Of a DNA stretch of 64,000 bases, positions 29,527-55,350 are shown piece by piece. This DNA is from Stenotrophomonas sp. 610A2 (GTDB taxonomy: Bacteria; Pseudomonadota; Gammaproteobacteria; Xanthomonadales; Xanthomonadaceae). The stretch covers positions 682,001 through 746,000 of the forward strand of contig NZ_CP130832.1 of the NCBI RefSeq assembly GCF_030549615.1. Reading direction: 5' to 3'. The notes beneath the pieces are model-generated. The model saw only the letters and a program-made list of their open reading frames with translations, ran no database searches and was not told the origin of the DNA. Made by a program: the position numbers and the translations under genes. Position 1 is the stretch's first letter; each line of letters begins with the position of its first letter.

Positions 29527-29587
29527 GTCAAAACCGGGGTCAGAGTGGAGTTTCGTTCCGAAACCCCACTCTGACCCCGGTTTTGAC
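29527..29587. repeat. Long palindrome, copy 1
   Basis: Arms 29530-29555 and 29559-29584 (AAAACCGGGGTCAGAGTGG...TTTCG and complement) around loop TTC, extended by 3 bp on each side. One mismatch in the stem (GGAGTTTC against GAAACCCC). It lies between ohr and the oxidoreductase gene. Confidence 0.93.
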
Positions 29588-30598: not shown

Positions 30599-30659
30599 GG
30601 CAAAACCGGGGTCAGAGTGGGGTTTCGTTCCGAAACCCCACTCTGACCCCGGTTTTGCC
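30599..30659. repeat. Long palindrome, copy 2
   Basis: Arms 30602-30627 and 30631-30656, loop TTC, perfectly paired and extended by GGC/GCC. An extra CAAAACCGG half-unit precedes it (30592-30600). It sits between the convergent oxidoreductase and arylsulfatase genes. Confidence 0.95.
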
Positions 30660-32343: not shown

Positions 32344-32440
32344 CAAAACCGGATCAAAACCGGCAAAACCGGGGTCAGAGTGGGGTTTCGTTCCGAAACC
32401 CCACTCTGACCCCGGTTTTGCCGGTTTTGATCCGGTTTTG
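32344..32440. repeat. Long palindrome, copy 3, with 47-bp arms
   Basis: Arms 32344-32390 and 32394-32440 are perfectly complementary around loop TTC. The inner 26 bp is the common core; the outer 21 bp (CAAAACCGGATCAAAACCGG plus C) repeats the CAAAACCGG motif. It lies after the STM4011-like gene and upstream of the arylsulfatase start. Confidence 0.95.
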
Positions 32441-49453: not shown

Positions 49454-49488
49454 GTTGGTGCACGTACAAAGCAGGGAAGGTTCACCCG

Positions 49489-50901
49489 ATGCAGCAGCCA
49501 GCCGCAGGCCGACGCCTGAAAAAGCCCAACCGGACCTGGGTCCGTCCCTTTGCCGAGGGCACCGGTCCGCTCTACCTGCAGATTGCCCAGCAGGTACGCG
49601 ATGCCGTGGACGATGGCGTGCTGCAACCCGGCGACCGCCTGCCGCCGCAGCGCGACCTGGCCCAGCTGATGGGCGTGGACCTGACCACGGTTACCCGTGC
49701 CTACGCCGAGCTGCGCCAGTCCGATCTGCTCGACGCGCAGGGCGCCGGCGGCACCTTCATCGCCATGTCGGCCGGCAACAGCGCCACCTCGGTCGACCTG
49801 AGCATGAACATCCCGCCGCTGCTGGGCAGCAGCCCGTTCGCGCAGAGCATGGAGCGCGGCTTCCAGCAGCTCAGCCAGCAGCTGGGGCAGGGCGAGTTGA
49901 TGAGTTACCACGTCGGCGCCGGCTCCCGCGATGACCGTGCCGCCGCCGTGCAGTGGCTGGCGCCTATCCTCGGCAACGTCTCCGCCGAGCGGGTGGTGAT
50001 CTGCCCCGGCGCGCAGGCCGCGCTCTGCGCCATCGTGCTGGCCAAGACCCAGCCGGGTGACCTGATCGCCGCCGAACAGCTGACCTATCCGGGCCTGCTG
50101 GCCGCCGCGCGCGTGCTGCAGCGGGGCATCGTCCCTATCGCCATGGACGCTGAAGGCATGCTGCCGGACGCGCTGGAAGCGGCCTGCCAGCAGCGCAAGC
50201 TCAGCCTGATCTATCTGATCCCAACCATCCAGAACCCGACCACCGCGACCATGTCGCAGGCCCGCCGTGCCGCCATCCTGGCCATTGCCCGCCGCCATGG
50301 CATAGCCGTGGTGGAGGATGATCCCTACTGGCTGCTGGCCGCCGATGCGGCGCCGCCGCTGGCGGTGGATAGCCACCCGGATGCCCCGGTCTACTACGTT
50401 TCCACCCTGTCCAAGTGCCTGGCGCCGGGCCTGCGCACCGCCTATCTGGTGGTGCCGCCGGGCGAGCCGATGGAGCCGCTGCTGGACGCCCTGCGCTCGA
50501 TCGCGCTGATGCCGACCCAGTCGATGGTTGCGGTGGCCTCGCACTGGATCCGCAGCGGCCAGGCCGATGAGATGGTGCGCCGCTTCCAGCAGGAGCTGCG
50601 CCAGCGCCAGCAGATCGCCGCGCGCATCCTGCCCAATCCCTATCAGGCGCAGCCGTCCGGCCTGCATGTGTGGTTGCCGCTGCCGCCGCGGCTGGACCAG
50701 TACCGGCTGATCCAGGCCGCGCAGGCACAAGGCCTGGGCATCGCCAGCTCGGAGGCCTTCAGCATCGAGGAGCAGGCCGGCAATGCCATCCGTCTGTCCC
50801 TGGGCGGGGCAGTCGACCAGCACAGCCTGGCGGCGGCATTGACCAAGCTGACCGAGGTTATCTCGGCAGCACCTGAGACGCGGACGCAAGCGATCGTTTG
50901 A
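49489..50901 (+). CDS. MocR-type (GntR-aminotransferase fusion) transcriptional regulator
   Basis: A 470-residue MocR regulator. Residues about 25-92 are a GntR winged helix (PLYLQIAQQVRDAVDDGVLQ, PPQRDLAQLMGVDLTTVTRA); residues about 100-455 form an aminotransferase class I fold with the PLP lysine Lys309 in YVSTLSKCLAPGLRTAY, aspartate VVEDDPYWLL and NPTTATMSQARR. PLP or an amino-metabolite is the likely effector. It is divergent from cyoA and probably regulates the oxidase operon through the CCATACAA/TTGTATGG site. It is a paralogue of the gene at 52035. Confidence 0.93.
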   Translation: MQQPAAGRRLKKPNRTWVRPFAEGTGPLYLQIAQQVRDAVDDGVLQPGDRLPPQRDLAQLMGVDLTTVTRAYAELRQSDLLDAQGAGGTFIAMSAGNSATSVDLSMNIPPLLGSSPFAQSMERGFQQLSQQLGQGELMSYHVGAGSRDDRAAAVQWLAPILGNVSAERVVICPGAQAALCAIVLAKTQPGDLIAAEQLTYPGLLAAARVLQRGIVPIAMDAEGMLPDALEAACQQRKLSLIYLIPTIQNPTTATMSQARRAAILAIARRHGIAVVEDDPYWLLAADAAPPLAVDSHPDAPVYYVSTLSKCLAPGLRTAYLVVPPGEPMEPLLDALRSIALMPTQSMVAVASHWIRSGQADEMVRRFQQELRQRQQIAARILPNPYQAQPSGLHVWLPLPPRLDQYRLIQAAQAQGLGIASSEAFSIEEQAGNAIRLSLGGAVDQHSLAAALTKLTEVISAAPETRTQAIV

Positions 50902-52034: not shown

Positions 52035-53438
52035 ATGAACTGGATGGACAGCGCGCTGCGCAGCAACGGCCCGATCTACCTGCGCATCGTCAACAGCATC
52101 GAGCGCAGCATGAACACCGGCGAGCTGGTGCCCGGTCATCGCCTGCCATCGCAGCGAGCATTGGCCAAGCAGCTCGGCATCGACCTGACCACGGTGACGC
52201 GCGCGTTTGATGAAGCACGCCGACGCGGCCTGATCGAAGCGCGCGGACCGCAAGGCAGTTTCATCGCACCGCCGAAAGCCGCCTTCGGGCAACCGGTCGA
52301 CCTGAGCATGAACGTGCCACCGGTACCGGATGCGTTGGCTTTGAACGATGCTTTGCGACGCGGTGCAGCCGCCGTGCTTGCACGCAGCAATGCGCCGAAC
52401 CTGATGACGTATCACCTCGCTGGCGGCAGCCCGACCGACAGGCATGCGGCGACGAGCTGGCTGCAGCCGATGCTGGGCGATATTGCCGATGCAGGTCTGG
52501 TGGTTGCCGAAGGTGCACAGTCAGCGCTGGCCTCGATCCTGATCAGCCAGACCCAGGAAGGCGAGGTGATTCTTTGTGATCACCTGGTGTATCCGGGGCT
52601 TCTGCAGGTAGCCAAGTCGTTGGGGCGACGCTTGCTGCCGGTTGATGGCGATGCGGAGGGAATGCACCCGGATGCGCTGGAGCGTGCTTCTAGGCAGAGC
52701 GGTGCACGTGTGGTTTACCTCAATCCGACCTGCAACAACCCGACTGCACTGACGATTCCACCGCAACGTCGAATCGAGTTGGCGCGTGCGCTGCAGGGGC
52801 TGGATCTACTAGCCATCGAGGATGATCCGTATTGGCATCACGCTGCGAAAAAGCCAACGCCAATTGCGGCGCTGGCGCCGACGCATGTGTATTACGTATC
52901 AACCTTGTCGAAGGCGATCAGCCCAGGCCTGCGCACTGCATTCGTGCGCTGTCCATCGGAGCAGCATGCAGAAGCACTGGCGATTGCATTGCGCTCGATC
53001 TGCCTGATGGGGCATCCACTGGTGATGGCGCTGGTAAGCCAGCTGCTGTTGGATGGATCGGCGAACGCATTGTTGAATCAGGTGTTGGATGAAGCCCGCG
53101 AACGCACCGCACTGGCCGCTCATCTGCTGGTGCCTGCGTTGAAAGTGCAGGCAGCCGGATTGCATGCCTGGTGCACCCTGCCGGAGCAAAACCGGCAAAA
53201 CCGGGGTCAGAGTGGGGTTTCGGAACGAAACCCCACTCTGACCCCGGTTTTGCCCTGGACCGACACCAGCTTCGCCCGCGCCGCTCAACTGCAAGGCCTG
53301 GCAATCACGCCCTCATCGGCATTCAAACCAGATGGCGCGCAACGCAGCCAGGGCTTCCGCCTCTCGCTGGGGCAAGCAGGCAATCGCCGTCAGCTGCAGA
53401 GCGCGTTGGGGCGAATCAACCAGCTGGTGGATGCGTGA
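52035..53438 (+). CDS. MocR-type regulator carrying an in-frame palindromic insertion
   Basis: A 467-residue MocR regulator, paralogous to the gene at 49489. Winged helix at about 13-80 (PIYLRIVNSIERSMNTGELV, SQRALAKQLGIDLTTVTRAF); aminotransferase-like domain with Lys293 in YVSTLSKAISPGLRTAF and AIEDDPYWHHA. Compared with the paralogue, residues 386-407 (NRQNRGQSGVSERNPTLTPV plus LP) are extra: the flanking 6 and 17 residues exactly match a 23-residue stretch in the other protein. The extra 66 bp is a copy of the long palindrome. The frame is kept, so a full-length protein is made, but the insert lies in the C-terminal subdomain and may affect function. Confidence 0.9.
   Translation: MNWMDSALRSNGPIYLRIVNSIERSMNTGELVPGHRLPSQRALAKQLGIDLTTVTRAFDEARRRGLIEARGPQGSFIAPPKAAFGQPVDLSMNVPPVPDALALNDALRRGAAAVLARSNAPNLMTYHLAGGSPTDRHAATSWLQPMLGDIADAGLVVAEGAQSALASILISQTQEGEVILCDHLVYPGLLQVAKSLGRRLLPVDGDAEGMHPDALERASRQSGARVVYLNPTCNNPTALTIPPQRRIELARALQGLDLLAIEDDPYWHHAAKKPTPIAALAPTHVYYVSTLSKAISPGLRTAFVRCPSEQHAEALAIALRSICLMGHPLVMALVSQLLLDGSANALLNQVLDEARERTALAAHLLVPALKVQAAGLHAWCTLPEQNRQNRGQSGVSERNPTLTPVLPWTDTSFARAAQLQGLAITPSSAFKPDGAQRSQGFRLSLGQAGNRRQLQSALGRINQLVDA
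53190..53255. repeat. Long palindrome, copy 4, inside a coding sequence
   Basis: Arms 53197-53222 and 53226-53251 with loop GAA (complement of the TTC loop, so opposite orientation to copies 1-3), extended by GGC/GCC to 53194-53254. Together with a CAAAACCGG-type half unit on the left it adds exactly 66 bp (22 codons) to the MocR gene without a stop codon in the used frame. Confidence 0.95.
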
Positions 53439-53450
53439 GTCAAAACCGGT

Positions 53451-53509
53451 TCAAAACCGGGGTCAGAGTGCGGTTTCGAAACGAAACCGCACTCTGACCC
53501 CGGTTTTGA
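53451..53509. repeat. Long palindrome, copy 5, with compensatory change
   Basis: Arms 53453-53478 and 53482-53507, loop AAA. Relative to the other copies, C replaces G at 53471 and G replaces C at its partner 53489, so pairing is kept. Outer CAAAACCGG (53441-53449) and CCGGTTTTG (53512-53520) units flank it. It starts 2 bp after the MocR stop. Confidence 0.95.
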
Positions 53510-55255: not shown

Positions 55256-55350
55256 GCAAAACCGGGGTCAGGGGCAAAACCGGGGTCAGAGTGGGGTTTC
55301 GATACGAAACCCCACTCTGACCCCGGTTTTGCCCCTGACCCCGGCTTTGC
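55256..55350. repeat. Long palindrome, copy 6, with 46-bp arms
   Basis: Arms 55256-55301 and 55305-55350 around loop ATA, with a single mismatch in the outer part. The inner 26 bp is the common core; the outer 20 bp (GCAAAACCGGGGTCAGGGGC) is itself a partial copy of the core's beginning. It lies between the H-NS-like gene (10 bp after its stop) and the GH43 promoter. Confidence 0.95.

Follow-up and report, generated by a model that had tools for sequence, protein, structure and literature searches.

A MocR-like regulator gene of Stenotrophomonas sp. 610A2 carries a palindromic repeat of the TIR type that was, in our reading (probability about 0.8), inserted in frame into a tolerant loop of the encoded protein, selection having kept only such insertions. 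The gene lies in the 64,000-nucleotide stretch of DNA analyzed here (the window). The insertion would have taken place once, in a common ancestor of the window strain and its relative PS02298, with mobilization by a REP-type HuH tyrosine transposase of the TIRYT kind. The palindrome may have survived in the gene because its 57-bp unit is a multiple of three, can be read in one of two stop-free frames, and falls in a strand-helix loop of the aminotransferase domain. Intragenic survival would then reflect the filter of selection, with other insertions removed, and tolerant linkers, such as those of IcmF and HrpA, would therefore gather copies repeatedly. The insert is presumably translated and probably brings no benefit to the cell. 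This reading draws on sequence comparisons, which show the insert, sites with and without it, carriers under purifying selection, half-elements near a transposase in relatives, and recurrence in IcmF and HrpA.

The regulator combines a GntR helix-turn-helix with a class I aminotransferase domain (Pfam PF00392 and PF00155). The gene, its paralogue, and the parts of the insert are as follows.

49480..50901, plus strand: first MocR-like paralogue, insert-free (open reading frame, Pfam, alignment)
52035..53438, plus strand: insert-carrying MocR-like regulator gene (open reading frame with ATG at 52035; both Pfam domains)
53187..53252, plus strand: in-frame insert of 66 bp, 22 codons, QNRQNRGQSGVSERNPTLTPVL (alignment gap, empty sites, exact borders)
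53187..53195, plus strand: 9-bp tandem unit CAAAACCGG (pairwise alignment of PS02298 with the window)
53196..53252, no strand: 57-bp palindrome unit, its paired arms reaching 2 bases beyond each side
53194..53222, plus strand: left arm of the palindrome, 29 nt (inverted-repeat search)
53226..53254, minus strand: right arm of the palindrome, 29 nt (inverted-repeat search)

A preliminary description had placed the insert at 53190..53255. The insert is real, and its position shifts by 3 bp: the borders 53187-53252 were set by comparison with empty orthologues and can slide by one base either way. The insert had also been described as a 55-bp core palindrome plus a half-unit; instead, it consists of the 57-bp unit and a 9-bp tandem copy of CAAAACCGG, which is present in the window gene and missing from PS02298. 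The remaining claims held, namely that the protein has 22 residues more than its paralogue, whose row in protein alignment A1 lacks the insert, and that the insert preserves the frame, which indeed stays open and stop-free across it. The arms are 100% complementary over 29 nt around a 3-nt loop, and the RNA of positions 53160-53285 is predicted to fold at -76.4 kcal/mol (z of -9.07) with a 29-bp stem.

Alignment A1 comprises 40 proteins, i.e., 38 of 120 listed MocR homologues, the window protein, and the paralogue. The gap that an alignment with orthologues was expected to reveal appears at the insert in all but one of the 39 other rows, among them that of the paralogue. The sole exception, P0001 (94% identical; 30 member sequences), has an insert of 26 residues at the same place and is the only one of the 120 listed homologues with the paired insert signature. 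At the DNA level, five named Stenotrophomonas genomes, one of them S. terrae, have an empty site (L046, L048-L051). Empty orthologues read GAG or GAA (CCG in one genome) followed by CC[A/G]TGG, and a glutamate codon (proline in ATCM1_4) there joins PWTD directly. In PS02298 (L047), the insert starts at the same place without the 9-bp repeat; the contig ends inside the palindrome, leaving at least 13 residues visible and the frame readable through the first arm only. The two palindromes differ at one loop base and at two of the last four bases at the contig end. Both complete versions of the insert (22 and 26 residues) are in frame. Beyond the one-base slide, filled and empty MocR sites revealed no target-site duplication, which sets the insert apart from MITEs.

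Between the window genome and PS02298, both carriers, the dN/dS of the MocR gene is 0.080 (dS of 0.41, 381 codons); the values for the 14 other MocR pairs lie between 0.077 and 0.182. Judged from these codon comparisons, the regulator gene stays under purifying selection, with no relaxation seen if the two carriers share one insertion. A structure model of the regulator (mean pLDDT of 86.9), proposed at the outset as a check, returns the insert as a low-confidence loop: the block means are 63, 50, and 69 over residues 381-410, compared with 86 before and 89 after, and the region follows a strand (376-380) and leads into a helix (409-418). According to this model, the MocR insert probably forms a loop in the aminotransferase domain.

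The palindrome belongs to a dispersed family. The window contains its core pattern six times (12 strand matches) versus 0 expected from 100 shuffles. Besides the insert, these are the following.

29536..29578, no strand: palindrome copy (core match), judged intergenic (pattern; positional orthologue in PS02298, L137)
30608..30650, no strand: palindrome copy (core match), judged intergenic (pattern)
32371..32413, no strand: palindrome copy, judged intergenic, whose nested outer extension is symmetric and pairs over 25 bases (pattern, arm measurement)
53459..53501, no strand: palindrome copy directly 3' of the regulator stop codon (pattern)
55282..55324, no strand: palindrome copy, judged intergenic, with a nested second GGGGTCAG pair (pattern, arm measurement)

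No palindrome copy was found in the 240 bp downstream of the regulator in five relatives. Across the window genome, one pattern finds 20 full palindromes, and the HrpA pair, which has a longer loop, brings the number to 21 paired copies; they are clustered, with six in a 26-kb part of the window and five in a 19-kb part near 3.74 Mb. The CCGGGGTCAGAGT form is present in 4 of 91 Stenotrophomonas genomes, the window genome counted. Across the order, 47 of 299 genomes, belonging to 27 of 85 genera, have a looser GGGGTCAGAGT palindrome. Many PS02298 contigs (L047, L116-L143) end inside the palindrome; because contigs end at copies, draft genomes probably undercount them. Among 27 measured palindromes, pairing extends outward by 2 to 25 locus-specific bases, which fits fold-back copying. 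The nested outer arms at 32371-32413 and 55282-55324, which pair over 25 and 18 bases, are also locus-specific. Rfam at gathering thresholds gave 0 matches in the window, and blastn of window positions 53180-53270 against phage and plasmid records gave no match.

The insert likely belongs to the TIRtron/TIRYT group of dispersed palindromic repeats, with inverted GGGGTCAG units and an associated REP-type HuH tyrosine transposase. The sections devoted to these repeats in PMC3733652 (section 16) and PMC6006769 (section 20, subclass 2.1) give them the motif GGGGWSAS and count S. maltophilia among their hosts. We had considered subclass 2.1 transposases to be repeat-less, a view rejected on the same two sections, which identify them as the TIRYTs and assign GGGG[AT][CG]A[CG] inverted repeats to them. 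The motif is present as GGGGTCAG in the listed copies; this sequence was required by the pattern searches and is an independent finding only at the MocR, HrpA, and IcmF loci of PS02298 and SY1, located by protein homology. Like TIRtron/TIRYT repeats, the family is dispersed over the genome (the 21 paired copies), and in relatives its inverted copies flank a REP-type tyrosine transposase. The Y1 transposase genes of SY1 and PS02298 have an inward half-element 136-139 bp upstream of the domain match; half-elements stand on both sides in SY1, and none was found downstream in the 466 bp available in PS02298.

We extended this comparison to 29 Y1_Tnp loci, 27 of them from genomes mostly chosen for the palindrome and 2 being window-genome matches (13 genomes searched, 12 with loci). 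With transposase types assigned by eye from the QRG, NHVH, and YIE motifs, 11 of the 12 genes of this type have an inward unit upstream, at most 190 bp away, versus 0 of 17 other Y1_Tnp genes; in L200 the upstream unit has the variant form GGGGCCAGA, and L179 is the exception without one. A downstream unit accompanies 9 of the 12. The transposase motifs (NHVH, WE, YIELNP, and SS) agree with those given for subclass 2.1/TIRYT in Table 1 of PMC6006769, and the match to the NCBIfam REP_Tyr_transpos model (78.5 bits) is just below the cutoff of 80. By its motifs, and as far as the relevant sections describe the groups, the palindrome-associated transposase appears to fit among the TIRYTs (PMC3733652) and subclass 2.1 (PMC6006769). 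This ties the TIRYT group to a clear repeat family in Xanthomonadaceae. The window palindrome resembles TIRtron/TIRYT repeats in its inverted copies next to an NHVH/YIELNP REP-type tyrosine transposase and in its dispersed single and dimeric copies, but it departs from their description in that most copies in the window genome are full palindromes. Nor did that genome yield a cognate transposase, both of its Y1_Tnp matches being of another type.

Five of the 21 paired copies in the window genome lie in frame within genes. Besides the regulator, these encode IcmF (1645 bits in NCBIfam), HrpA (1435 bits), a transporter of the MFS type (Pfam MFS_1), and a CopL-like protein (a weak match of 30.8 bits, below the cutoff of 40). 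The search for further intragenic copies that the preliminary description had proposed thus yielded four more. The other 16 were judged intergenic from open reading frames and third-position GC, by which a gene broken by a copy could escape. Both stop-free frames of the palindrome are in use (RGQS; GSE/GSES) and give unrelated peptides. Among IcmF orthologues in six genomes, four are empty, PS02298 has the palindrome, and Stenotrophomonas sp. Iso1 has a different insert. The latter (L217), about 18 residues at the same linker, is not obviously palindromic. In another Stenotrophomonas (G016), a pattern match places the palindrome at the same IcmF linker. The MFS transporter has a close match in two of six genomes (PS02298 and humi), both empty; a further MFS match at G119:C1:426495 (42%) was rejected, the similarity being confined to the element. 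In HrpA, the palindrome is present in PS02298 and SY1, and none was found in humi, Iso1, or ATCM1_4; locus L203 has no exact GGGGTCAGA. S. terrae HrpA (L201) has a colinear linker 2 without clear arms and reads KPNADPS where relatives read KPDSDPG, perhaps a decayed right arm to judge from the residues. SY1 HrpA has an additional half-element by itself at another linker. Elsewhere in SY1, L243 is a candidate half-element C-terminal extension.

The same two genes recur across the order. In an order-wide palindrome survey of 30 loci, one per genome, three have a spanning coding-like open reading frame and two of these are in frame within genes, again IcmF (L150, of which a 666-residue piece scores 719 bits) and HrpA (L153; 972 bits), from another family of the order. 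The third, L168, was rejected as an in-frame copy: its FAD-oxidoreductase match begins after the element. Among 120 listed of 7469 IcmF homologues, the strict GQS...SDP signature is found at the linker in 34, or in 29 of 62 distinct linkers; the search region held the insert, so the list favors carriers and 34 of 120 is not a prevalence, and the other 86 lack the strict signature. A second IcmF site, before the GTPase, has the signature in 7 of 118 parsed proteins (in P0162 at a slightly different point) and in P0150. Seven of the listed IcmF proteins have two palindrome signatures. Source names of carriers include Stenotrophomonas, Marilutibacter, and Thermomonas, with Luteimonas at the second site. 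The HrpA list (120 of 8000) is likewise biased towards carriers; at linker 2, 8 proteins, SY1 included, have the paired signature (4 unparsed), and linker 1 (20 unparsed) shows nothing beyond half-element peptides, which in three proteins read KPGSES. P0249 (SY1) was rejected as a paired linker-1 case, since it combines a half-element with a native SDP. Outside those linkers, 10 of 360 listed proteins match: P0001 and nine IcmF proteins (second site or linkers missed at first). It is likely, then, that tolerant inter-domain linkers in IcmF and HrpA collect palindrome copies again and again.

Several observations count against our main reading. No cognate transposase was found in the window genome, where the orthologous transposase site is truncated, and no target-site duplication is visible; the incomplete PS02298 insert and the lack of a downstream unit beside the PS02298 transposase weaken it slightly as well. 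The identity of the arms between species, moreover, exceeds what plain tolerance predicts. Between the HrpA genes of the window genome and SY1, which are 83.2% identical, all 53 compared arm bases are the same while the loop has diverged (p of about 6e-5 at the gene-wide rate), and the visible PS02298 HrpA arms match too. The IcmF copy differs from that of PS02298 at one loop base in 44. This identity is not there by construction, because the loci of the relatives were found by protein homology. In IcmF homologues, the residues that follow GQS and precede SDP are compatible with palindrome pairing in 33 of 36 distinct segments, against a mean of 20.7 after shuffling (0 of 100,000 shuffles as high), a test inflated by relatedness and scored leniently for arginine, with its two possible first bases.

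The arm identity and the IcmF pairing could mean that the hairpin is kept in genes for a nucleic acid function, for example as an RNase III or pausing site in mRNA or a protein-binding hairpin in DNA, with the peptide a by-product. The conserved HrpA arms next to a diverged loop, the IcmF and MocR copies that differ from PS02298 at one loop base each (the MocR copy also at two of the last four bases before the PS02298 contig breaks off), the IcmF covariation, and the stable 29-bp RNA stem (z of -9.07) all speak for it. On the other hand, the arms are dispensable, as S. terrae HrpA has no recognizable arms and the strict signature is missing from 86 of the 120 IcmF homologues listed; relatedness and lenient arginine scoring weaken the covariation; and homogenization of the family or reinsertion could also keep arms alike. 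We therefore rate this explanation as unlikely. A related idea, slightly less doubtful but still tentative, is that certain inter-domain linkers, chiefly that of IcmF (GTPase-mutase) and one in HrpA, have housed TIR palindromes over long times in different genera, where the lineage-specific palindrome writes the linker and the DNA or RNA hairpin is kept rather than the peptide. If so, a selfish or regulatory hairpin would persist in working genes through harmless translation.

It is improbable that the inserted peptide is itself adaptive, altering the ligand response of the regulator or the behavior of the IcmF and HrpA linkers. The reuse of identical sites, their sharing by related species, and purifying selection on the host genes would agree with a useful peptide, but the insert is missing from nearly all MocR homologues, varies in length (22, 26, and at least 13 residues), is modeled at low confidence, and draws on both stop-free frames (RGQS and GSES), whose peptides are unrelated. 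Slightly less probable again is an origin on the spot, by template switching or duplication at a short inverted repeat, instead of insertion of a mobile unit. Symmetric, locus-specific outer arms with up to 25 paired bases are what fold-back copying would leave, and the lone half-element in SY1 HrpA also agrees with it; however, an on-site origin does not give a core shared at 20 places in the window genome, and inward copies adjoin a transposase in relatives. On-site copying may well shape palindrome copies after insertion. An assembly artifact or a dead gene is highly improbable: palindromes do break short-read assemblies, as the many PS02298 contigs ending in them attest, but the window genome is a single contig, dN/dS between carriers is 0.08, and an artifact in particular is unlikely because two other sources, PS02298 and P0001, have the insert at the same place.

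Palindromes lying in frame within genes have precedents in other repeat families, of the CGTC (RPE) and GTAG types. The preliminary description likened the case to Rickettsia palindromic elements (RPEs), and the situation is indeed alike, with a dispersed palindrome in frame in a gene under selection and, in RPEs, palindromes in frame inside probably functional proteins; the element itself is not an RPE. According to the parts of PMC3733652 that treat them, the RPEs of R. conorii have CGTC at their ends, and repeats with this tag lack an association with transposase genes, whereas the window palindrome has GGGGTCAG ends, no CGTC in its 57-bp unit, and an unrelated sequence. The preliminary description also knew of no such report in Xanthomonadaceae. 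That does not hold for intragenic REPs in general, which section 15 of PMC3733652 lists for X. oryzae, for recB of X. campestris, and for S. maltophilia genes encoding tRNA pseudouridine synthases; for the TIR type, we found no such report in the open-license papers searched. The intragenic survey in that paper, as presented there, covers GTAG and CGTC repeats, and over half of the intragenic GTAG REPs are dimers or groups encoding 20-30 residues (section 15). GTAG REPs are like the window palindrome in lying in frame inside open reading frames, Xanthomonas and S. maltophilia included, and unlike it in their GT[AG]G foot tag and transposase subclass; membership was rejected, as the foot of the 57-bp unit has no GT[AG]G and GTGG occurs only inside the stem. 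The genes named for GTAG REPs in the same sections mention RNA helicases of O. terrae and include no IcmF, HrpA, or MocR.

Within the open-license literature, as far as the sources extend, we found no description of recurrent in-frame TIR-type palindromes. The kind of event is already known from RPEs and intragenic REPs; in those sources we did not find this type of element described, nor these genes as hosts, nor linkers that are used repeatedly. A third, unrelated palindrome type in frame, at the same linkers across genera, suggests a more general route to protein linker sequence. Natural occupied and empty pairs are available for asking whether the peptide or the hairpin matters.

Several further observations concern the transposase. 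At the orthologous transposase site in the window genome (L088, G000:C1:793087-794818), the upstream unit breaks off and gives way to other sequence, with an inverted half-element about 1.7 kb away; we read it as the scar of a lost transposase unit. L187 (G071) encodes a transposase of this type with NHVL instead of NHVH, still flanked by repeats, and is probably inactive to judge from that motif. Among 9 of 27 matching plasmid records, the region upstream of the transposase holds GGGTCAGA-type units in 5, inverted repeats bearing GGGTCAGG are present in 2, and the remaining 2 have neither. In four of these nine records (L251-L254, from Rhodospirillum, Skermanella, and Iodobacter), the transposase gene has annotated toxin-antitoxin genes immediately upstream.
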